Source of the DNA: Methanogenium sp.
GTDB lineage: Archaea; Halobacteriota; Methanomicrobia; Methanomicrobiales; Methanomicrobiaceae
Direction: 5' to 3'
DNA length: 64,000 bases
Assembly (NCBI GenBank): GCA_030595665.1
Contig: JAUVCV010000007.1
Coordinates: 1-64,000 of the forward strand
Position numbers and translations under genes: made by a program. A model generated the notes under the pieces. It did not search any database and was not told where the DNA came from. It saw only the letters and a list, made by a program, of their open reading frames with translations. Positions 2,156-54,405 of this stretch are shown one piece after another. Each line of letters opens with the position of its first letter. Positions within the stretch are counted from its first letter, which is position 1.

Positions 2156-3028
2156 ATGTTGGCATATGAGGTCTGGGTGTATGAACCTGAATACCCGCTG
2201 AATCTGGATGCCACACTCTCCTGCGGCCAGCTCTTTCGATGGAAAAAGCAGGAGGACACCTGGGAGGGAGTGGTCGATGGTAAACTCATCACCCTTCGCC
2301 AGGACGGTGGGAAGCTGTACTTTACCGGCTGTTCTGAGGAATTTCTTATCTCGTATCTGCACCTCGACTGTGCTCATGACGACATTGTATCCGGATTCTC
2401 TTGTGACTCTTATATCACTGATGCAGTCTGCCGCATCGGCGGCCTGCGCATCGTTCGCCAGGACCCGTGGGAATGTCTCATCTCATATCTCTGTGCCCAG
2501 AATGCAAATATCCCGTTCATCACCCGGATGATCGAGAATCTGTGCCGGGCCGCAGGGAAACCGATCACAGCACCAGACGGGACAATCCGGTATGCTTTTC
2601 CCACACCGGATGCCCTCTGTGCCCTCACCCTTGAAGAGAAACGTGGGTGCAGTCTTGGATACCGGGCGCCATATATTCATAAAACTGCTGCAGCCATCGC
2701 CGCTGATCCCGGATGGGCAGACCACATCAGAAAGATGTCCTTTGAAGAGGCACGCCGGGCACTGATGGCATATCCTGGTATCGGCCCGAAGGTGGCAGAC
2801 TGTGTGCTCCTCTTCGGTTTCCAGAAGTATGAGTCCTTCCCGGTGGATGTCTGGATGCGAATGATCATGCACCGTCTCTATGGTGTTGGTGACCCGGAAA
2901 AATCGCTTACCACGGCAGAGTATGAGCGGATTCGTCGGTTTGCACAGGAGCATTTCGGCCCGTATGCAGGCTATGCACAGGAGTATCTCTTTGCTATCCG
3001 TGAATCGTATTCAGATGGGAAATTCTGA
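2156..3028 (+). CDS. ogg: 8-oxoguanine DNA glycosylase/AP lyase, OGG1-like
   Basis: The 290-residue protein removes 8-oxoguanine from DNA and cleaves the abasic site. Residues about 5-110 match the OGG N-terminal beta domain (SCGQLFRWKK near 22-31). Residues about 110-285 form the HhH-GPD domain. The helix-hairpin-helix reads YPGIGPKVADC with the catalytic lysine at K212, and the essential aspartate is D231 in FPVDVW. It differs from the short archaeal AGOG and OGG2 types, which lack the N-terminal domain. The start lies 17 bases after the IS-relic end, so its original promoter may have been replaced or be inside the relic. It converges with the hydrolase gene downstream. Confidence 0.92.
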   Translation: MLAYEVWVYEPEYPLNLDATLSCGQLFRWKKQEDTWEGVVDGKLITLRQDGGKLYFTGCSEEFLISYLHLDCAHDDIVSGFSCDSYITDAVCRIGGLRIVRQDPWECLISYLCAQNANIPFITRMIENLCRAAGKPITAPDGTIRYAFPTPDALCALTLEEKRGCSLGYRAPYIHKTAAAIAADPGWADHIRKMSFEEARRALMAYPGIGPKVADCVLLFGFQKYESFPVDVWMRMIMHRLYGVGDPEKSLTTAEYERIRRFAQEHFGPYAGYAQEYLFAIRESYSDGKF

Positions 3029-44123: not shown

Positions 44124-45038
44124 ATGGAAGAAATACTATTTGGCATCGGTATCAGCGCTTTAGCCGGCGCTCTTGCCACCGTGGCTGGCGCTGCGGAGGA
44201 TACTGAATCTGATATCGGATCACAGGGTGACCCGAACTCGCAGGTTCAGCTGGCTCCGCAGATGGGGTATGTTCACAGGATTTACAACAAAGCTATATCC
44301 GGTGAACCCCCTGCATATGGTCTATGGGTGGCATTAGCTGCTGGAATTGCCTGGGCGTTGATGGCGATTCAGTACAATGCGATTCTTGCTCTCATCATTG
44401 GTTCTGCGGTCGCAGTCTTTGTGCAGGGCGTGTACGCCACGACTGCATATCTCGGTCGTACGGCAAGTCTCGCAAAATTTGAACAGCCGGTTTATATCGA
44501 TATTTTGAAATCGGTTACAACTGTGACTATGGCCCACGCATTCGTAGCGGTTTTCACCACTGTTACTATGTGTTTCCTTATCATCGAGGCACTGGGACAT
44601 CCGTTCCCGCTCCCATTAATGGGTCTCGTATGGGGAATCGCACTTGGAGCAGCAGGGTCTGCAACTGGTAACCCGTTCTATGGAAAAGAACGCCAGTATC
44701 AGAATTACCCCTTCGGTGCAGGGTTACCTATCTCCGCATCCGGTGACATTGTCCGGTATGCAGAGGCAGGACAGAGAAGTTCACTTGACAATGGATGGTT
44801 CACATCCAAGGGAGCAGGTCCCGCATCCGGTATCTGTTTCGGTCTTATCGTGTTCTTCGAATTATGGCGTACCATTCTCTTCGAGCCATTCGCAGCAGGC
44901 TGGGGAGCAGTGATCGCCGGTGCCGTAATTATCATCGTCTTCATGGTTATCGACCGCATGGTTGAGACATGGGCACGCAAGACCTACGGTCCATACACTA
45001 CAGCAGAAGCAGTTACAGAAGAGGAGGCAACAGCATGA
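44124..45038 (+). CDS. mtrE: Tetrahydromethanopterin S-methyltransferase subunit E
   Basis: MtrE is an integral membrane subunit of the Na+-translocating methyltransferase and is thought to form the ion path with MtrC and MtrD. The 304-residue protein has about six hydrophobic helices. Landmarks are GAAEDTESDIGSQGDPNSQV near 24-43 and TGNPFYGKERQYQNYPFGAG. GGGAGG precedes the ATG. Its stop overlaps mtrD by ATGA. Confidence 0.95.
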   Translation: MEEILFGIGISALAGALATVAGAAEDTESDIGSQGDPNSQVQLAPQMGYVHRIYNKAISGEPPAYGLWVALAAGIAWALMAIQYNAILALIIGSAVAVFVQGVYATTAYLGRTASLAKFEQPVYIDILKSVTTVTMAHAFVAVFTTVTMCFLIIEALGHPFPLPLMGLVWGIALGAAGSATGNPFYGKERQYQNYPFGAGLPISASGDIVRYAEAGQRSSLDNGWFTSKGAGPASGICFGLIVFFELWRTILFEPFAAGWGAVIAGAVIIIVFMVIDRMVETWARKTYGPYTTAEAVTEEEATA

Positions 45039-45865
45039 GTGCATTAGGTGGCGGTTCAGCTGGCGGTGAGGGTATTAACCCGGCTGCATCAGTGATCGCA
45101 CTTGTTATCGTACTTGCATCAGTTGGTATTGCCTATGTTGTCTACCCGGCAGCACTCATTCCCCTTATCGGCGTCATCGTCGGCGGCGTGCTCATCTCCT
45201 TTGGTGTGCACTTTGTCCCGGTTGGCGGTGCACCTGCAGCAATGGGCCAGGCACCCGGTATTGCTACTGGTGTTGCAATGCTCGCTGCCGGAGGTGGCCT
45301 TGCAGGTCTCTTCGGAGGCGCATGGGCAGCTGAGATGGGTATCTGGGTAGCACTCGGAGCAGGCGCAATGGGCGGCGGTCTCCTGATGGCAATTACCTGT
45401 CTGATGGTGAACGTTGTTTACGTCTATGCAATGGGTATTCCCGCTGCATCCGGAAAGGTCGACAAAGACCCAATTACCGGTGATACGTACGAAGGATACA
45501 GATCTCAGGGAACAGAGGGTCACGGACTTCCGTTCATCTCCTACGTTGGCGGTGTTATTGGTGGTATCTTAGCCGGTGCAGGTGGTACGCTGATCTATCT
45601 CGAACTTCTCTCCGTCTATCAGGAAGCACTGCCTTCATTCCTTGGAATGACCCCAGAGGGTATGCAGACGCTTGCAGTATCCCTTGCAGGTATCTTTGCA
45701 GTCGGCATGTTCCTTGTAGCAGCAGTTCTTACCGCGTACAACATTACCGGTACAATCGAAGGTCCTCACGACCCGAAGTTCAAGAGATGGCCCCGTGCAG
45801 TAATCGGATCGTCTGCAGCATGTGCAGCATGCGGTCTTGTTGCAATTCTTCTGGTGGTAATCTGA
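45035..45865 (+). CDS. mtrD: Tetrahydromethanopterin S-methyltransferase subunit D
   Basis: The predicted 276-residue membrane subunit begins at ATG 45035, overlapping the mtrE stop by ATGA; the frame is open 22 codons further upstream but that part is not membrane-like. It has glycine-rich hydrophobic helices and the loop SGKVDKDPITGDTYEGYRSQ near residues 141-160. It works with MtrC and MtrE in the ion-pumping module. Confidence 0.94.
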   Translation: MSALGGGSAGGEGINPAASVIALVIVLASVGIAYVVYPAALIPLIGVIVGGVLISFGVHFVPVGGAPAAMGQAPGIATGVAMLAAGGGLAGLFGGAWAAEMGIWVALGAGAMGGGLLMAITCLMVNVVYVYAMGIPAASGKVDKDPITGDTYEGYRSQGTEGHGLPFISYVGGVIGGILAGAGGTLIYLELLSVYQEALPSFLGMTPEGMQTLAVSLAGIFAVGMFLVAAVLTAYNITGTIEGPHDPKFKRWPRAVIGSSAACAACGLVAILLVVI

Positions 45866-45876
45866 GGTGTTAGAGA

Positions 45877-46740
45877 ATGACAGTTAAAATTGAAGCATCA
45901 GAAGGCGGAATGGACCACAATGTCATGCTTGGCATTGGGCTCGTTGGCGCACTGGTCTGTATCTATCTGGTCTACCTTAACACCCTGATGTCAACGGAAG
46001 TCTTTGCCTTCTTCGGCGGGCTTGCGGCTATCATCGCACTTTGGTGGGGTACTGACTCAATTAAGAACCTCTGCAGCTACGGTCTTGGTACTGGTGTGCC
46101 ATCCGCAGGTATGATCGCACTTGGTTCCGGTGTTGTTGCCATGCTTTTTGCAACAAAACTCGCAGGAATCAGTCCGCTTCTTGTGCCTGTCGGCTGTGTC
46201 GTTGTTGCAGCAATCCTCGGAGCAATCCTCGGATTCATTTCAGACAAGGTTCTCAACATGAACATCCCGGTCATGACCCGCATGATTGCAGAGCTCACCG
46301 TTGTCGGTTCACTGACAACGCTTGGCTTTACTGCAATGGTTGCAGGCACGTTCTCATTCGGAGATCTCATCACCGGTGCAACATCAGTCTTTGGCGTTGA
46401 AATTGCAAGCTACGCATCATCTGTTATCGGCGGATGTGTGCTCGCAACAATCTTCATGCTTGGTGCAATCGCAATCCAGCACCCCTTCAATGCATGTCTT
46501 GGTCCTAATGAATCATGGGACCGTACACAGATGTGCGCAATTGAATGCGGTGCTTTGAGCATGATCGTTATTGCAATCATGTCACTTGCATTCCTCTCAC
46601 TTCCCGCAGTCGTCATCTCATTTGTTATTTCAATCATCCTCTGGGGATGGTCCTACAGTGAGTTGATCAAGCTCTCGAAGCGTGATGCATTTGCATGGCT
46701 TGATTCTCAGCCTATCCGTGAAGTCGGAGGTGAACAGTAA
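45877..46740 (+). CDS. mtrC: Tetrahydromethanopterin S-methyltransferase subunit C
   Basis: The 287-residue integral membrane subunit has about eight hydrophobic segments and a cytoplasmic HPFNACLGPNESWDRT loop typical of MtrC. It forms the membrane core with MtrD and MtrE. The stop TAA shares its last base with the mtrB ATG. Confidence 0.94.
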   Translation: MTVKIEASEGGMDHNVMLGIGLVGALVCIYLVYLNTLMSTEVFAFFGGLAAIIALWWGTDSIKNLCSYGLGTGVPSAGMIALGSGVVAMLFATKLAGISPLLVPVGCVVVAAILGAILGFISDKVLNMNIPVMTRMIAELTVVGSLTTLGFTAMVAGTFSFGDLITGATSVFGVEIASYASSVIGGCVLATIFMLGAIAIQHPFNACLGPNESWDRTQMCAIECGALSMIVIAIMSLAFLSLPAVVISFVISIILWGWSYSELIKLSKRDAFAWLDSQPIREVGGEQ

Positions 46741-47024
46741 TGGGATATATCCAGGTACTACCTGAGTATGGTCTCGTCGCTGACCCCCTCGTCGGGCTTG
46801 TGACCACCGCAGGGGCATCCTTCGGTCCGGTCGTTGAGCGTGTCGAGAAACTCGACAAGGTTGCTGATGACATTGTTAACATGCTCTCCGGAGAAGGAGA
46901 CTTCCTTGCATCGTTCCCTGGCAGAGGCCAGGCTCTGCTCTATGCAGGTGGTGTCACAGCAATGTGGTATGGTCTTGCGGTCGGATTTTTCATCGCGGGG
47001 ATAATCGCGTTTGGATTCTTATGA
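46740..47024 (+). CDS. mtrB: Tetrahydromethanopterin S-methyltransferase subunit B
   Basis: The 94-residue subunit has a hydrophilic N-terminal two-thirds (YGLVADPLVGLVTTAG) and one C-terminal membrane helix at about 73-93. MtrB is a small helper subunit of the complex. One-base overlap with mtrC indicates coupled translation. Confidence 0.92.
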   Translation: MGYIQVLPEYGLVADPLVGLVTTAGASFGPVVERVEKLDKVADDIVNMLSGEGDFLASFPGRGQALLYAGGVTAMWYGLAVGFFIAGIIAFGFL

Positions 47025-47035
47025 GGTGATATGAT

Positions 47036-47557
47036 ATGGCAGATAAGAAATCCCCGGCCTCAGGCTGGCCAGTTATCAAGGGCGATTACATATCCGGCAG
47101 TGCAGATAGCTGTGTTGCAGTCTGTTCTTTCGGGTCTCACCTTGACGAACAGGGTATCTGTGATGCAGGCGCTGCTATCTGTGGTTCCTGTAAGACAGAA
47201 AACCTTGGGCTTGAGAAGCTGATTGCAAATACCATCTCAAATCCGAACATCCGTTTCATCATCTTCTGCGGAACAGAAGTGAAGGGTCACTTATCCGGCC
47301 AGTCACTGAAGGCTCTGCACGCAAATGGTGTCGAGGGCGGTAAGATCGTTGGTTCCAAGGGTGCTATTGCATTTATTGAGAATCTTGATGCAGCCGCAAT
47401 CGGGCGTTTCCAGGAGCAGGTCGAAGTCATCGACATCATGGAAAGCGAAGACATGGGTGCTATCACCGCAAAAATCAACGAGTGTGTTGGGAAAGATCCC
47501 GGTGCATTCGATGCAGACCCGATGGTAATCGAGGTCAGCGACGATGAAGGCGGTGCT
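47036..47557 (+). repeat. Direct repeat, copy 1: 5' part of mtrA
   Basis: These 522 bases recur at 47972-48493. By hand I count about 19 differences, all synonymous third-position changes. Only one falls in the first 160 bases and the rest lie in the 3' two-thirds. Both copies encode the same 174 residues. Confidence 0.9.
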
Positions 47558-47758
47558 GAGGGTACAGAGGGCGTCGAAGCTGAGATGTCCGCTGAACTTG
47601 CTCTGATCCATGCCCGGATGAAAACAATCCAGATGATGGTCACTGATATGGGATACCGCAACCGCTATGCAGCGGGTGTGTATTCCGGTAAAGTCGAAGG
47701 AATAATGATCGGACTGATCATATCGTTTGTCCTTTTGGGCTTCCTTTTGATGGGGTGA
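47036..47758 (+). CDS. mtrA: Tetrahydromethanopterin S-methyltransferase subunit A (corrinoid), canonical copy
   Basis: The 240-residue subunit binds the corrinoid that accepts the methyl group from methyl-H4MPT and passes it to CoM. The cobalt-ligating histidine is H85 in [10 protein letters not shown]. Residues 1-174 form the soluble corrinoid domain, followed by an acidic linker ([11 protein letters not shown]), a helical stalk and a C-terminal membrane anchor (about 220-239). Residues 1-174 are identical to those of the MtrA-MtrG fusion encoded 936 bases downstream. GAGGTGAT precedes the ATG. Confidence 0.95.
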
Positions 47759-47763
47759 TATAA

Positions 47764-47970
47764 ATGACAGATGAAAAACAACCCACAACAATCCGTACTG
47801 CAGCGATTGATGGCATGATGTCTGAGATCACGTACAAAGGGCAGATTCTTGCACGTACCAACAAGCTTGACTCTGCAATTAGTGCCAGCGGTATCATAGG
47901 ATTTTCTTTCGGTCTGGTCATTTCTATTGTCCTTGTGATGGTACCTGTATTATTACTGGGAGGTATCTGA
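47764..47970 (+). CDS. mtrF: Tetrahydromethanopterin S-methyltransferase subunit F
   Basis: The 68-residue protein has a hydrophilic N-terminal half with [20 protein letters not shown] and one C-terminal membrane helix (about 43-66), as in other MtrF proteins. MtrF resembles the C-terminal part of MtrA. It lies between the two mtrA-type genes, 5 bases after the first and 1 base before the second. Confidence 0.88.
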
Positions 47971-47971
47971 A

Positions 47972-48493
47972 ATGGCAGATAAGAAATCCCCGGCCTCAGG
48001 CTGGCCCGTTATCAAGGGCGATTACATATCCGGCAGTGCAGATAGCTGTGTTGCAGTCTGTTCTTTCGGGTCTCACCTTGACGAACAGGGTATCTGTGAT
48101 GCAGGCGCTGCTATCTGTGGTTCCTGTAAGACAGAGAACCTTGGACTTGAGAAGCTGATTGCAAACACCATCTCAAATCCGAACATCCGTTTCATCATTT
48201 TCTGCGGAACAGAAGTGAAGGGTCACTTATCCGGCCAGTCACTGAAGGCTCTGCACGCAAATGGTGTCGAGGGCGGTAAGATCGTCGGTTCCAAGGGTGC
48301 TATTGCATTCATTGAAAATCTTGACGCAGCCGCAATCGGGCGCTTCCAGGAGCAGGTCGAAGTCATCGACATCATGGAAAGCGAAGACATGGGCGCGATC
48401 ACCGCAAAGATCAACGAGTGTGTCGGGAAAGACCCCGGTGCATTCGACGCAGACCCGATGGTAATCGAAGTCAGCGATGATGAAGGCGGTGCC
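47972..48493 (+). repeat. Direct repeat, copy 2: mtrA-derived part of the fusion gene
   Basis: This is the second copy of the 522-base repeat described at 47036-47557. It ends at codon 174 (GGA), exactly where the MtrA linker gives way to the MtrG part. Confidence 0.9.
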
Positions 48494-48712
48494 GGCGGTG
48501 CAGTCTCTGCCACAGCAAACCCACAGTTCCTCGAGATTGAGGCAAAACTCAATGCTATCGAGACGAAACTGGAGTTTGCTGATGCAGAACTTGCTCAGCG
48601 CTTTGGCCGTAAGGTCGGCCGTGACATAGGCATTCTCTATGGCCTTGTCGCTGGTCTGATTGTATTCATGATGTTATTGGTATTACTCCCAAAGTTAGGC
48701 GGATTTATCTGA
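47972..48712 (+). CDS. MtrA-MtrG fusion: second corrinoid subunit joined to MtrG
   Basis: The predicted 246-residue protein has residues 1-174 identical to MtrA, including H85. From about residue 176 the MtrA stalk is replaced by an MtrG sequence: [40 protein letters not shown] and a membrane helix at about 222-242. Standalone mtrG normally stands exactly here (order mtrA-F-G-H) and no other mtrG is present, so this gene supplies MtrG as a fusion. It adds a second corrinoid domain that would be tethered to the MtrG stalk. The reading frame is intact. Confidence 0.9.
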
Positions 48713-48725
48713 GGAGGGAGAAAAA

Positions 48726-49763
48726 ATGTTCAAATTTGAGAAAGAACAGACGGTACACGACTTCAACGGTACCAAGATTGGCGGGCAGCCCGGAGAATAT
48801 CCACGGGTTCTCGGTGCGTCTATCTTCTATAACAAGCACGAGTGCGTTATTGATGATATGAAGGGCATAATTGACAAGGATCGCGCAGAGGCGCTCTGGA
48901 ACAGGTGTCAGGAACTTTCTGACCAGACAGGTGTGAAACACTTTATCCAGATCATCTCTGAATCAGGAGAGGCATTTGAGAAATACTTCTCATGGTTTGA
49001 CTCCATTGACAGCAAGACAGCATTCCTGATGGACTCATCTGAACCTAAGGCACTTGCTCACGCATGTGGGTACGTGACTGAGGTTGGACTGGCAGACCGT
49101 GCTATCTACAACTCAATCAATGGTTCAATCCTTCCGGAGAGCATTGAGGCACTCAAGAACAGTGACGTTAACGCAGCTATTGTGCTGGCATTTAACCCTG
49201 GCGACCCAACCGTAAAGGGCCGTGAGGCAGTGCTCGCAGAGGGTGGCGTCGCTGGTCAGGAGAAATCCATGCTTGCAATTGCAGAAGAGTGCGGCATTAC
49301 CCGCCCTATCCTTGATACCGCAGCAACACCGCTCGGTCTTGGGTCAGGCGGTTCATTCCGTGAGATTCTTGCGTGCAAGGCAATTCACGGTCTCCCAACC
49401 GGTGGTGCATACCACAACATGACCGTCTCCTGGACGTGGCTCAAACGCTGGAGAGGAACCAAAAAGACTCCCTCAGTGCTTGTAAGTCAGTATGAGGGCA
49501 AGGACCTCCTTCTTGAGCAGATGTCACACCACCACTTTGGTGGCATGGAGGGCATCAAGCAGACTGCGTGGGCAGCACCCGATATCGGATGTAACATCAT
49601 GGCAGCAACCCTTGGTGCAGACCTTATCATGTACGGACCTATCGAGAATTGTGAGGGTGCATCTACCGCAATCGCATTCACCGATATTGTCCTTGCAGAA
49701 GCAGCAAAAGAGCTTGGCGTGAACGTCGCAACCGATGACCACCCACTCTTCAAGCTGGTCTAA
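48726..49763 (+). CDS. mtrH: Tetrahydromethanopterin S-methyltransferase subunit H
   Basis: MtrH is the peripheral subunit that transfers the methyl group from methyl-H4MPT to the MtrA corrinoid. The 345-residue protein is a TIM-barrel of the pterin methyltransferase type. Landmarks are FEKEQTVHDFNGTKIGGQPG at the start, YNSINGSILPESIE, FNPGDPTVKGRE, LDTAATPLGLGSGGSFREI and GPIENCEGASTAIAFTDIV. GAGGAG precedes the ATG. It is the last gene of the mtr operon. Confidence 0.96.
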   Translation: MFKFEKEQTVHDFNGTKIGGQPGEYPRVLGASIFYNKHECVIDDMKGIIDKDRAEALWNRCQELSDQTGVKHFIQIISESGEAFEKYFSWFDSIDSKTAFLMDSSEPKALAHACGYVTEVGLADRAIYNSINGSILPESIEALKNSDVNAAIVLAFNPGDPTVKGREAVLAEGGVAGQEKSMLAIAEECGITRPILDTAATPLGLGSGGSFREILACKAIHGLPTGGAYHNMTVSWTWLKRWRGTKKTPSVLVSQYEGKDLLLEQMSHHHFGGMEGIKQTAWAAPDIGCNIMAATLGADLIMYGPIENCEGASTAIAFTDIVLAEAAKELGVNVATDDHPLFKLV

Positions 49764-49967: not shown

Positions 49968-50822
49968 TCAAAAAATTCTGACGGTGCTCATGGCACCTTT
50001 GATGTCAAGGGAAATATCAATATTTTTTACGGTATGGGTGAGGCTTCCCATGCTGATGGTATCAATTCCCAGCACAGCATAGGACTCAAGTGTCTCCGGC
50101 GTAATATTCCCTGAGACTTCAATTACTACATTTTCCCGTAATCCGTTTTCCATGAGAAGGTCAAGGGTTCCCTGCACGTCCCTGGGGAGCATATTATCAA
50201 GGAGAATGATGTCTGCCCCTGTGCGTGCGGCAGTGAGTGCATCCTCTGCTGTCTCCACTTCCACTTCGACATTCACATACCTGCTGTATGCCCGTGCCTT
50301 CTGAACTGCCTCTTTGAGGGGAACGAGTGCCAGATGATTGTCCTTGATGAGGATCATATCAGAGAGGCTCATGCGGTGTGGGTCAGCGCCACCTGTTACC
50401 AGTGCCTGCTTGTCGCAGAGGCGCAGTCCGGGTGCGGTCTTTCGGGTGCCTGCAATGCGAACTTTTGGGTTTGCCTTTTCTGCTGTATGCACCGCCCGGC
50501 GGGTTGCCGTTGCAATACCGCTCATTCTGCTCATCAGGTTAAGCATGGTTCGCTCTACCATCAGGATACCTGCTGCAGTGCCTTCGAGTTCTGCAATGAG
50601 GGTGCCTGCCTGAATCTCTGCACCTTCAGATACTCTCCGTGTGAAGGAAATGTTGCAGTGTTTGCAGAGTTCATTTGCTTCAAAAATCCCGGATATGACT
50701 GCATTCTCTTTTCCGGTGATGCGGGCCGTGCACCTGCGGTCCGGGATCACTGCCCGTGATGTGACATCACCTGAAGGGATGTCTTCATTCAGATACCGGA
50801 GGAGGTCTTCCCGAAGTGCCAT
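49968..50822 (-). CDS. nadC: Quinolinate phosphoribosyltransferase (decarboxylating)
   Basis: NadC converts quinolinate and PRPP into nicotinate mononucleotide. The 284-residue protein matches the family throughout: EDIPSGDVTSRAV near 13-25, GTRKTAPGLRLCDKQA (substrate-binding arginines and lysine), MILIKDNHL, VEVEVETAEDA, ILLDNM and EVSGNITPETL. It follows nadA by seven bases in the nadX-nadA-nadC operon. Confidence 0.95.
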   Translation of the reverse strand: MALREDLLRYLNEDIPSGDVTSRAVIPDRRCTARITGKENAVISGIFEANELCKHCNISFTRRVSEGAEIQAGTLIAELEGTAAGILMVERTMLNLMSRMSGIATATRRAVHTAEKANPKVRIAGTRKTAPGLRLCDKQALVTGGADPHRMSLSDMILIKDNHLALVPLKEAVQKARAYSRYVNVEVEVETAEDALTAARTGADIILLDNMLPRDVQGTLDLLMENGLRENVVIEVSGNITPETLESYAVLGIDTISMGSLTHTVKNIDISLDIKGAMSTVRIF

Positions 50823-50829
50823 AAATCTT

Positions 50830-51735
50830 TTATTCCTTTTGGAGTGCCATCATTCTTTCGATGGGACCGCGTGCCCGTTTCATGAGATGTGCGGGGAGAG
50901 TTACTGCATACTCTCCGGTGATGAGTGAGTGTTCCAGCATGTCGAGGGTTATTTTTTTCATGTCCTTACAAATGGCGTCTTCCCTGATCATGAATTTCTT
51001 ATCCGGGAAGAGTTTTTCAAGCCGGTATCCAATGCCCTTTTCGGTGAGAAGCATCCATGAATCAGCAAGATCTGCCATCTTTACCATCCCGCCGGTTGAT
51101 GCTACCACATCAGCACCTTTCCTGACCTCACGTGGACATTCAGGGTGACAAATTGTTGTAAAACCCTTCTCTGCTGCTGCTATGACATCATCACAGGAGA
51201 ACATTTCATGGACATAACAGTGTCCGCCTTCCGGCAGAGGTATGATTTTTTTATCCGGTACCCGTGATGCAACATAATCTGCCAGATTTGAGTCCGGGCC
51301 GAAGAGAACCGTCTTTTCTTTGAGTGAGCGCACCACCTCAACAGCGTTTGCAGACGTACAGACAATATCTGCCTCTGCCTTTGCTGCGGTGTCGCTGTTC
51401 ACGTAGAGGACAACTGCCGCATCCGGGTGAGCAATGCGAGCCTCCCGCACCATCTCCGGGGTGAGGAAGTCTGCAAGAGGGCATCCTGCATCCTTTGCAG
51501 GGAGGATGACGGTCTTCTCCGGGTTGAGCACTTTTGCGGTCTCTGCCATAAACCGGACACCGCAGAGGATGATGGTGTCTTCTGTGACACTACGGGCCTT
51601 CACGGCAAGTTCCAGACTGTCCCCGATGATGTCTGCTGCATCCTGTATTTCCGGAGGCTGGTAGTTATGGACAAGTATGATCGCGTTTTTTTCTTTTTTG
51701 AGTTGTTCAATTCGTTTCAACTGGTTGGTATTCAT
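50830..51735 (-). CDS. nadA: Quinolinate synthase
   Basis: NadA condenses iminoaspartate with dihydroxyacetone phosphate to quinolinate, using an oxygen-sensitive 4Fe-4S cluster. The 301-residue protein has the three cluster cysteines, in ILCGVRFMAET, VCTSANAVEVV and TICHPECPREV. HNYQPPEIQDAADIIGDSLE near the N-terminus is the substrate region. It pairs with aspartate dehydrogenase rather than aspartate oxidase (NadB), as expected for an anaerobe. Confidence 0.95.
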   Translation of the reverse strand: MNTNQLKRIEQLKKEKNAIILVHNYQPPEIQDAADIIGDSLELAVKARSVTEDTIILCGVRFMAETAKVLNPEKTVILPAKDAGCPLADFLTPEMVREARIAHPDAAVVLYVNSDTAAKAEADIVCTSANAVEVVRSLKEKTVLFGPDSNLADYVASRVPDKKIIPLPEGGHCYVHEMFSCDDVIAAAEKGFTTICHPECPREVRKGADVVASTGGMVKMADLADSWMLLTEKGIGYRLEKLFPDKKFMIREDAICKDMKKITLDMLEHSLITGEYAVTLPAHLMKRARGPIERMMALQKE

Positions 51736-51739
51736 GGTT

Positions 51740-52507
51740 TTAGGTCCCTATCTGGATGGGGTTATCGAGATTTCGCAATAATGACAGGATGGAGAGTGCG
51801 GCAAGGTAGCTTGTCGCTGGATTTTCAGGGCTTGGACGGTTACTTACCTTGATGTTAATGTCCCCAAATTCGCCTTCGACAATAATTTCGTGGGTATTCC
51901 GGTCAGTGTTTGGGTCTGCCCAAAGTTCAACTTCAACTTCATGGCCTGAAGCCAGTTCGATTGCAATGGCAACGTTGATATTTTTTGGGTACTGTCGGAT
52001 ACAGTCACGTGCGGTTCCCTTAAAGAGGAGCATTGGACGGTCTGCATCAATGCCCAGTGAACGGGGATTTTTGGTCGTCCGCAAAAGCACTTTGCTGACT
52101 TCCGCAATCTGGCAGACTTTCATGTTGTCAAGGCCGGTGATGGCACCACTCGGGATGTAGATTTTTTTGCCTTTCTCTACTGCACACGCTTTAAGATGAT
52201 CCCTGAACGGGTCATCCGAGAGAGCTCCCACGCTAAGGATTATCATGTCCTTTCCCGCGAGAAGGATTGCTTCTGCATGGGCCCGCACTGCAGAAACAGA
52301 CGCTGCCTCTACAACGAGATCCAGATCCTGTGCAAGGAACTCATCAAATGACTCGTATGCCTTTGCCCCGCACGCATCCTGTACTGCCTTTGCTTTGTCA
52401 TAAACTGCGTCATGGAGGGCTACAATATTAACTCCCTCGTGTTTGCGTGCGATGATTTCACCGACATTCCCGCACCCCAGTAATCCAATCCTGCGCATTT
52501 GTACCAT
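51740..52507 (-). CDS. nadX: L-aspartate dehydrogenase
   Basis: This enzyme oxidises aspartate to iminoaspartate with NAD(P), the first step of NAD synthesis in this pathway. The protein is 255 residues from the first ATG, or 252 from the fourth codon (52498), which gives the family-like N-terminus MRRIGLLGCGNVG; a TATA-like AATTAAAA about 25 bases before that codon would give a leaderless start there. Further landmarks are VVEAASVSAVRAHA, IPSGAITGLDNMK and the C-terminal catalytic NRPSPENPATSYLAA. Confidence 0.92.
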   Translation of the reverse strand: MVQMRRIGLLGCGNVGEIIARKHEGVNIVALHDAVYDKAKAVQDACGAKAYESFDEFLAQDLDLVVEAASVSAVRAHAEAILLAGKDMIILSVGALSDDPFRDHLKACAVEKGKKIYIPSGAITGLDNMKVCQIAEVSKVLLRTTKNPRSLGIDADRPMLLFKGTARDCIRQYPKNINVAIAIELASGHEVEVELWADPNTDRNTHEIIVEGEFGDINIKVSNRPSPENPATSYLAALSILSLLRNLDNPIQIGT

Positions 52508-52715: not shown

Positions 52716-52819
52716 GGCCCTACTGCGAAGTGAGCGCAATCTTTAACCGGTTTGCGTTTACTCTCTGAGTGGTAGGTGCATTTTATTCTGTTCGGCAGCT
52801 ACTGCCGGGAGTGACTACC

Positions 52820-53623
52820 ATGAGAGGAAAACAAATCCGACTGGAAAGAATCATGAACCGTGACACGGGCACAACAGTAATCGTTCCTATGGACCACGGG
52901 GTATCGAGCGGACCGATTGCAGGCGTTATCGATCTGGAAGAGAGTGTGAACCTGGTGGCACAGGGGGGGGCCAATGCAGTCATCGGCCACATCGGACTTG
53001 CCCTGCACGGCCACCGGAAAGGCGGGCCTGACATCGGCCTGATTCTCCATCTCTCTGCAAGCACAGACATGGGTCCTGATCCGAATAACAAGGTAATCGT
53101 AAATACGGTTCCCAATGCCCTGAAGATGGGAGCAGACTGTGTCTCGGTGCACTGCAATATCGGTGCTGACTCCGAGGCGCGGATGCTTGAAGACCTCGGT
53201 CGTATCGCAGTCGATTGTATGGAATGGGGCATGCCACTTCTTGCGATGATGTACCCACGTGGGCCGAATATTGTCAATGAAAAGGGTGTAGATGAGGTCA
53301 AACATGCGGCACGGGTGGCATCAGAACTGGGTGCTGATATTGTGAAGACCCCCTACACCGGTGATCCTGACTCTTTCCGTGAGGTCACCGCCGGATGTCA
53401 TGTCCCGGTGGTGGTCGCAGGCGGCGCACGCGGTGATGACTTTGCGACCCTGCAGATGATCGAAGGGGCGATGGAAGGCGGTGCTGCGGGCATCTCCATC
53501 GGCAGAAATGCCTTCCAGCATCCACACCCGGACTTATTTGTCCGTGCAATGGCGCAGGTGGTTCACGAACACCGCAGCGCAGAGGAGGCAGCAGAGATCC
53601 TCAGAGCAGGTGGCCGCGTATGA
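52820..53623 (+). CDS. 2-amino-3,7-dideoxy-D-threo-hept-6-ulosonate synthase family aldolase, copy 1
   Basis: This 267-residue class I aldolase starts at ATG 52820 with GGGAG upstream; the frame is open 17 codons earlier but without support. It belongs to the archaeal family that makes the aromatic precursor ADH from an aldehyde sugar and aspartate semialdehyde, replacing DAHP synthase. Landmarks are VIVPMDHGVSSGP with the conserved aspartate, HLSASTDMGPDPNNK, ADCVSVHCNIG, and the Schiff-base lysine in ADIVKTPYTGD. Position at the head of the aro operon supports an aromatic role. The gene overlaps the next by ATGA. Confidence 0.85.
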   Translation: MRGKQIRLERIMNRDTGTTVIVPMDHGVSSGPIAGVIDLEESVNLVAQGGANAVIGHIGLALHGHRKGGPDIGLILHLSASTDMGPDPNNKVIVNTVPNALKMGADCVSVHCNIGADSEARMLEDLGRIAVDCMEWGMPLLAMMYPRGPNIVNEKGVDEVKHAARVASELGADIVKTPYTGDPDSFREVTAGCHVPVVVAGGARGDDFATLQMIEGAMEGGAAGISIGRNAFQHPHPDLFVRAMAQVVHEHRSAEEAAEILRAGGRV

Positions 53624-54405
53624 TCGGAAAGGCCATCCGTCTGGAGCGGATCATGGACCGGAATACCGGTCGGTCGGTTATCATCCCGATGGACCATGGT
53701 TTCTCAGTCGGGCAGATTTACGGGCTTCATGATATGCCCAGGGTCATCTCTGCAGTGAGTGAGGGCGGTGCGAATGCGATTGTCCTTCATAAGGGCATGG
53801 TGCGCCACGGTCACCGGAAGGCGGGCTCTGACATCGGCCTCATCGTCCATCTTTCGGCGAGTACGTCTCTTAACCCGGACCCGAATGACAAGGTCTCCGT
53901 CTGTTCGGTAGAAGAGGCCATATCCCTCGGTGCAGACTGTGTCTCCATTCATATCAATCTGGGAGCCCCGAACGAGTCAAAGATGATCGAGGAGGCAGGT
54001 GTCATCTCCTGGCAGTGCACCCGCTGGGGCATGCCGCTTCTGGTCATGATCTACCCCCGTGGTGAGGGTATTGACCCTGCTGATCCGGAGGCAATCGGTC
54101 TCTGTGTGCGGGTGGCAGAAGAACTGGGCGCTGATATCATCAAGACCAGTTACACCGGTGACCCGGAAAGTTTTGCAGCAATTACCGGTGCCTGTGCGGT
54201 GCCGGTATTGGTCGCAGGTGGCGAGAAAGGTGGTGACCTGGAGACGCTTATGATAATCCGGGAGGCAATCGGTGCCGGTGCTGCTGGCGTTGCGATGGGA
54301 AGAAATGCCTTCCAGCGTGACGATCCGGCACGGTTCATTCGTGCCATCACGCATGTGGTCCACCGGGATGCAACGCCTGAAGATGCACTCGGGGGCGGTG
54401 CATGA
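53620..54405 (+). CDS. Class I aldolase of the ADH synthase/DhnA family, copy 2
   Basis: The 261-residue protein is a close paralogue of the preceding gene: VIIPMDHGFSVGQ, HLSASTSLNPDPNDK, ADCVSIHINLG and the catalytic lysine in ADIIKTSYTGD are all conserved. In Methanocaldococcus two related aldolases act in sequence: one forms 6-deoxy-5-ketofructose 1-phosphate and the other joins it with aspartate semialdehyde. The tandem pair may be those two activities. I cannot tell which is which. Both ends overlap neighbours by ATGA. Confidence 0.82.
   Translation: MIGKAIRLERIMDRNTGRSVIIPMDHGFSVGQIYGLHDMPRVISAVSEGGANAIVLHKGMVRHGHRKAGSDIGLIVHLSASTSLNPDPNDKVSVCSVEEAISLGADCVSIHINLGAPNESKMIEEAGVISWQCTRWGMPLLVMIYPRGEGIDPADPEAIGLCVRVAEELGADIIKTSYTGDPESFAAITGACAVPVLVAGGEKGGDLETLMIIREAIGAGAAGVAMGRNAFQRDDPARFIRAITHVVHRDATPEDALGGGA

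Follow-up and report, generated by a model that had tools for sequence, protein, structure and literature searches.

The Mtr complex is a sodium-pumping methyltransferase central to methanogenesis, and Methanomicrobiales are major hydrogenotrophic methanogens. In the structures solved from M. marburgensis and M. mazei, the corrinoid domain of MtrA is carried on a flexible linker and the axial membrane bundle consists of MtrG helices (PMC10998594, PMC12774963). The stalk helices of MtrA, MtrB, MtrF and MtrG all have their N-termini in the cytoplasm, and a short sheet between MtrB and MtrG has been reported (PMC10998594). The M. mazei complex contains six MtrH and three MtrA; the proximal MtrH faces MtrA and the distal MtrH faces away, and the authors consider it unlikely that MtrA reaches the distal one (PMC12774963). 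In that complex the N-termini of MtrB, MtrF and MtrG form an extended sheet where the MtrH dimer docks (PMC12774963).

A fusion of MtrA to MtrG was published in 2015 by Wang et al. under the name mtrA-2b, which gene conversion keeps homogenised with mtrA-1, and its order-wide distribution in Methanomicrobiales was reported from eight orthologs (PMC4632066). It is also among the recurrent concertedly evolving genes (PMC6053082). An MtrA-MtrF fusion occurs in Methanococcales, and within Methanocellales the literature names it in M. arvoryzae only (PMC4632066). Among the four Methanocellales genomes read here, three carry MtrA-F (L217, L218 and L219) with 99.6-100% DNA identity to mtrA-1, and in the fourth (L220) mtrF is standalone. 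The fusion to MtrG, its spread through the order and its concerted evolution with mtrA-1 are already known since 2015, and the remaining interest lies in the function of the second domain and in the linked remodelling of the stalk tip. Added here are a 232-genome survey, the conservation of the cobalt ligands, dN/dS between the copies and the linked changes in MtrB and MtrH. Our literature search found no paper testing the role of the extra domain and no proteomic detection of an MtrA-G chain. Fusions are not mentioned in the searched portions of the text of two recent cryo-EM studies, and the species used in them have one corrinoid arm per protomer.

The stretch of Methanogenium sp. DNA analysed here (the window; 64,000 nucleotides) contains an mtr operon with the order mtrE-D-C-B-A-F-[A-G]-H immediately downstream of mcrA. 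The fusion gene sits between mtrF and mtrH, and a normal mtrA-1 is present in the same operon (Table 1). The initial annotation had described an intact gene whose first 174 residues equal MtrA, including the cobalt ligand H85, and whose remainder is MtrG, and the reading frame, the Pfam profiles and the sequence identity confirm that description. The frame runs from ATG to TGA without an internal stop. Its MtrA part scores 275.5 bits against PF04208 (E 1.9e-82, cut-off 25) and 290.9 against TIGR01111 (curated cut-off 249.15), and its MtrG part scores 78.1 bits against PF04210 (E 4.6e-22, cut-off 27) and 73.4 against TIGR01149 (curated cut-off 50.65). The first 174 residues are identical to those of the neighbouring MtrA-1; over the first 167 codons the DNA of the two genes differs at 17 of 501 nucleotides, all of them synonymous, with no amino-acid changes. 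H85 is equivalent to His84 of M. marburgensis and His85 of M. mazei. Among named organisms, the one with the most similar fusion protein is Methanogenium marinum, at 96% identity. Elsewhere in the window, nadC, nadA and nadX (aspartate dehydrogenase) make up a de novo NAD cluster on the minus strand directly beyond mtrH (49968-52507), and two overlapping tandem paralogs (52769-53623 and 53620-54405) both score as 2-amino-3,7-dideoxy-D-threo-hept-6-ulosonate synthase.

Table 1 Features of the mtr locus in the window
Feature	Position	Strand	Details
mtrA-G fusion gene (mtrA-2b), 246 aa	47972..48712	+	PF04208 at residues 4-172 and PF04210 at residues 184-237, in one uninterrupted frame
Second corrinoid (MtrA) domain, residues 1-174	47972..48493	+	Protein equal to MtrA-1; H85, E55, G109-A-I-x-F-x-E-N116; connectase-type site KDPGA at 153-157
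Linker [11 protein letters not shown], in place of the N-terminal strand of standalone MtrG	48494..48526	+	Alignment with outgroup MtrG
MtrG part, made up of a cytoplasmic helix and one transmembrane helix	48521..48709	+	PF04210 profile positions 10-63; match to 9qtq chain S and 8q3v chain G
mtrA-1, the normal mtrA, whose product has its own stalk/membrane helix; gene-conversion donor or acceptor with the fusion	47036..47758	+	
mtrF, standalone, flanked by both mtrA copies	47764..47970	+	
mtrB, with MtrH-docking N-terminal segment (as in M. mazei) kept and ERxDxxxY strand absent	46740..47024	+	
mtrH, 345 aa	48726..49763	+	
Order-specific insertion in MtrH, ~residues 245-282	49458..49572	+	Directly after the equivalents of M. 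mazei R239/K242/K243, at the pterin-cavity exit
mtrE, mtrD, mtrC: membrane globe, CoM and sodium sites	44124..46740	+	

In the source genome (G000; 2.23 Mb, 59 contigs), a profile search matched MtrA twice and MtrG once, all in the window and MtrG only as part of the fusion, and no separate mtrG was found by this search in a genome that is 91% complete. As the only MtrG match of the genome lies within the fusion, the proposal that the fusion replaces standalone MtrG, with no separate mtrG in the operon, holds. A search for another genomic mtrG and a survey of mtr operons in Methanomicrobiales had both been suggested as checks, and both were carried through. An MtrG match is present in 179 of the 232 genomes of the order (the same 232 make up the class-level set), in exactly one copy in each of the 179, and a separate mtrG elsewhere is thereby ruled out as far as the genomes allow. 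MtrG frames free of contig-end interruption are mostly ~240-320 aa long, i.e. fused, and every complete locus read in the order, single-contig genomes included, contains MtrA-1, MtrF and MtrA-G in that order. Outside the order, among the matches listed from 393 genomes of the phylum, the MtrG frame is at most 143 aa, too short for a fusion. Because the loci are fused order-wide and the listed frames outside the order are this short, the MtrA-G fusion is a trait of Methanomicrobiales, every uninterrupted copy read in the order being fused. The initial annotation had left the choice between an order-wide trait and a local novelty; the first of these stands and the second does not. Five short MtrG frames were fetched from the order (G090, G060, G064, G160 and G165), and all of them lie at contig ends, as expected if the near-identical mtrA repeat breaks assemblies. 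The sole short-MtrG exception in the interior of a contig is L061 (G166:C2), on a large contig, in which both mtrA copies are frame-broken. This double frameshift is probably a sequencing error, possibly shared through conversion.

Conservation and selection were examined in the 67 genomes in which both mtrA copies are complete. Neither copy varies across this set at the cobalt ligand H85, at its partner E55 or at G109, I111, E115 and N116 in the conserved segment; the roles of residues of the cobalt-ligand network of MtrA have been described (PMC4915002, PMC12774963). Gene conversion between the fusion and mtrA-1 is evident at the level of sequence. The mean DNA identity of the copies is 0.949 within genomes vs 0.745 between genomes, and the within-genome identity falls at about residue 169, where the anchors start. 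In a tree, both copies are sisters in 51 of the 67 genomes, and the remaining 16 mix only inside small groups of close relatives. The two copies in the window share 96.6% DNA identity, and the best other genome reaches 94.0%. At the protein level, the second domain has a median identity of 98.8% to MtrA-1, and the pooled dN/dS between the copies is 0.070. Since conversion by itself could keep even a copy without function similar to the other, the informative cases are the nine weakly homogenised genomes, in which the copies share 80-85% DNA identity. Their dN/dS is 0.04-0.12 despite weak homogenisation, so conservation is not due just to conversion. The second domain is kept by purifying selection on the protein, that is, selected for function.

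Three further changes accompany the fusion at the stalk tip and at MtrH. The N-terminal strand of outgroup MtrG, PxVVVDPxxY, is replaced in the aligned fusions throughout the order by a linker ending in (A/S/N)-P-Q-F-L-E; in the window fusion this canonical strand is likewise absent, and the MtrG profile match begins at position 10. A strand of the ERxDxxxY type is present in all full-length outgroup MtrB sequences read and is absent from 93 of 93 sequences of the order (72 determined by pattern and 21 by reading). Going by the short sheet between MtrB and MtrG (PMC10998594), we take this MtrB strand to be the likely partner of the MtrG strand. The third change is an insertion of 20-30 residues in MtrH. 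All 76 complete sequences of the order carry it (window 48726-49763 and L096-L174); the 15 outgroups and the four Methanocellales all lack it. The insertion comes after the basic residues that line the pterin-cavity exit in M. mazei, next to the active-site exit. The changes in MtrG, MtrB and MtrH lie on one branch and therefore count as a single observation, not as three independent ones. As a requirement for a second arm the MtrH insertion was rejected, being absent from the three Methanocellales with MtrA-F. The pterin of Methanomicrobiales is tatiopterin, and an alternative reason for the insertion may be that it suits the different pterin tail of the order.

With moderate confidence, we read the gene as an MtrG whose cytoplasmic N-terminus bears a second, working corrinoid domain, together with a full model of arm delivery that includes service of the distal MtrH. 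The topology permits a corrinoid domain on MtrG, since the N-termini of the stalk helices are cytoplasmic. In the solved complexes MtrG is a structural helix found once per protomer and no other mtrG was found, so each protomer should have two corrinoid domains, which lends indirect support, as regards domains, to the earlier proposal of two corrinoids per protomer; the B12-binding residues of the second domain are maintained by purifying selection. The three MtrG helices in the axial bundle of the Mtr trimer strongly imply three fusion chains and six corrinoid domains in every complex, and there should be six corrinoid arms per complex instead of three. Between the DPG of the linker site and the PQFLE that starts the MtrG helix, the fusion has 25-28 residues. 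The second domain would hang from the stalk tip by a similarly long, flexible linker, next to the strands of MtrB on which the MtrH dimer docks, and would take methyl groups from MtrH and hand them to the MtrCDE cavity like MtrA-1. Because M. mazei has six MtrH for three MtrA and the distal one is considered out of reach, the most likely task of the extra arm is to serve the second MtrH: the MtrG-borne arm would load at the distal, otherwise idle, MtrH of each dimer. This pairing is drawn from the structure of a non-fused complex and may apply here. The extra arm would speed up methyl delivery to the sodium pump or raise its occupancy, with a loaded arm ready more often; a rate-limiting step outside methyl pick-up would leave extra arms useless for rate. 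The natural fusions sit exactly on G (Methanomicrobiales) and F (Methanocellales, and Methanococcales as published in PMC4632066), which are subunits of the MtrH-docking sheet.

The most serious alternative is that the second domain is a spare shuttle kept for dosage or redundancy, with conversion purging mutations. It would work with the same proximal MtrH and supply more local corrinoid, with no new docking role. The high identity within genomes and the sister position of most paralog pairs are in keeping with this explanation, and Wang et al. argue for the removal of mutations (PMC4632066). However, a spare alone does not account for the linked changes, in which MtrG and MtrB lost their strands and MtrH gained its insertion, and it leaves unexplained why the duplicate was fused to stalk subunits of the MtrH-docking sheet in independent lineages. 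We regard it as unlikely, though well short of negligible.

A regulatory or protective module is considerably less probable. In this case the second domain would act, for instance, as a corrinoid for redox sensing or storage and, under stress, would occupy MtrH or the entrance to MtrCDE. A comparable effect is known from M. mazei, where MtrI blocks the MtrCDE cavity via the oxidised corrinoid of MtrA; MtrI is reported only in Methanosarcinales (PMC12774963), so other orders might use another device. The second domain is nevertheless identical or nearly identical to the catalytic one, without the divergence that would be expected of a specialised regulator.

It is also highly improbable that the fusion is processed during or after translation, with a free MtrA domain and a free MtrG as the working products. 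Connectase could then swap heads between the MtrA-1 and MtrG anchors. Connectase cuts MtrA at KD|PGA and then re-ligates it (PMC10154401), and a site of the KDPGA type is present in both copies. The connectase family (PF09894) has a patchy distribution in the order (73 of 231 genomes), and the copies are more alike in the genomes that have it (median 0.995 vs 0.962; p ~0.001 at genus level, uncorrected for relatedness). On the other hand, none of the seven genomes in the genus of the window has connectase, so it is not available here, and the Methanocellales lack it, yet their MtrA and MtrA-F DNA is almost or fully identical. Connectase is thus not the general cause of homogenisation: its role as the driver is suggested within the order and contradicted by Methanocellales. 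Head swapping between the two anchors may occur in species with connectase. A free MtrG arising from an internal translation start was likewise rejected, as no start with a ribosome-binding site is conserved. An internal start with a weak ribosome-binding match occurs in 7 of the 67 genomes; in the window, the MtrG helix is preceded by a single in-frame start, an ATG at residue 163 that has no Shine-Dalgarno sequence.

To the last alternative, that an assembler joined mtrA to mtrG through the mtrA repeat, we give practically no credence: near-identical 520-base repeats do break assemblies, as the short frames at contig ends illustrate, but the repeats in the window differ at 17 sites and are therefore distinguishable, and the same architecture in all complete loci read, including independent genomes assembled as one contig, refutes an artefact and upholds the fusion.

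The reading of the gene as an MtrG with a second working corrinoid arm bears on a puzzle posed by the M. mazei complex, namely why six MtrH accompany three MtrA and whether the distal MtrH works, since the arms would be twice as many. It would also make the Mtr of Methanomicrobiales a natural, ready-made variant in which to probe how the number of arms relates to methyl transfer and sodium pumping. More tentatively, and with somewhat less than even confidence, the Methanomicrobiales complex could be seen as a rebuilt double-arm machine, in which six corrinoid domains serve all six MtrH, including the membrane-distal ones considered idle in M. mazei, and the stalk tip and the mouth of MtrH were remodelled along with the fusion. 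More broadly, Mtr would evolve by grafting working modules, such as a corrinoid head or an MtrH-docking segment, onto stalk helices (compare MtrA-F and MtrB(1-26)-MtrG).

Two other unusual mtr arrangements were encountered. A genome of the Methanocella order (L218; G266:C212:5600-10100, reverse strand, frame 2683-3001) has a second mtrG with a copy of MtrB residues 1-26 as its N-terminus. The MtrG part of this chimera is 89% identical in DNA to the adjacent normal mtrG, and the gene has a ribosome-binding site and lies immediately upstream of mtrH. In M. mazei, MtrH docks on residues 1-26 of MtrB, and the chimera may add docking sites for MtrH. In the order of G504, several genomes show an additional, divergent mtrF-like match next to a weakly matching frame of 234-278 aa (G430:C109:3719-4083, G554:C15:12144-12511, G537:C41:6802-7178 and similar), which suggests a second mtr-like locus.

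Compared with known systems, the window gene is mtrA-2b itself: it shares with the MtrA-MtrG gene described from Methanomicrobiales (PMC4632066) the gene order, the fusion and the concerted evolution, and there is structurally no difference. A related system is mtrA-2a (MtrA-MtrF) of Methanococcales and Methanocella arvoryzae, which likewise places a second MtrA domain on a stalk helix and is homogenised with mtrA-1. It differs in being fused to MtrF instead of MtrG, and in Methanocellales the N-terminal strand of MtrG is kept and MtrH has no insertion. With canonical MtrA (PDB 8q3v and 9qtq; soluble domain 5l8x), the second domain shares the corrinoid fold family, the His ligand and the flexible linker to a stalk helix, whereas canonical Mtr has one corrinoid domain per protomer, carried on MtrA only. 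The stalk and the axial membrane helix are shared with canonical MtrG (8q3v chain G and 9qtq chain S), which has a short N-terminal strand where the fusion has its corrinoid domain.
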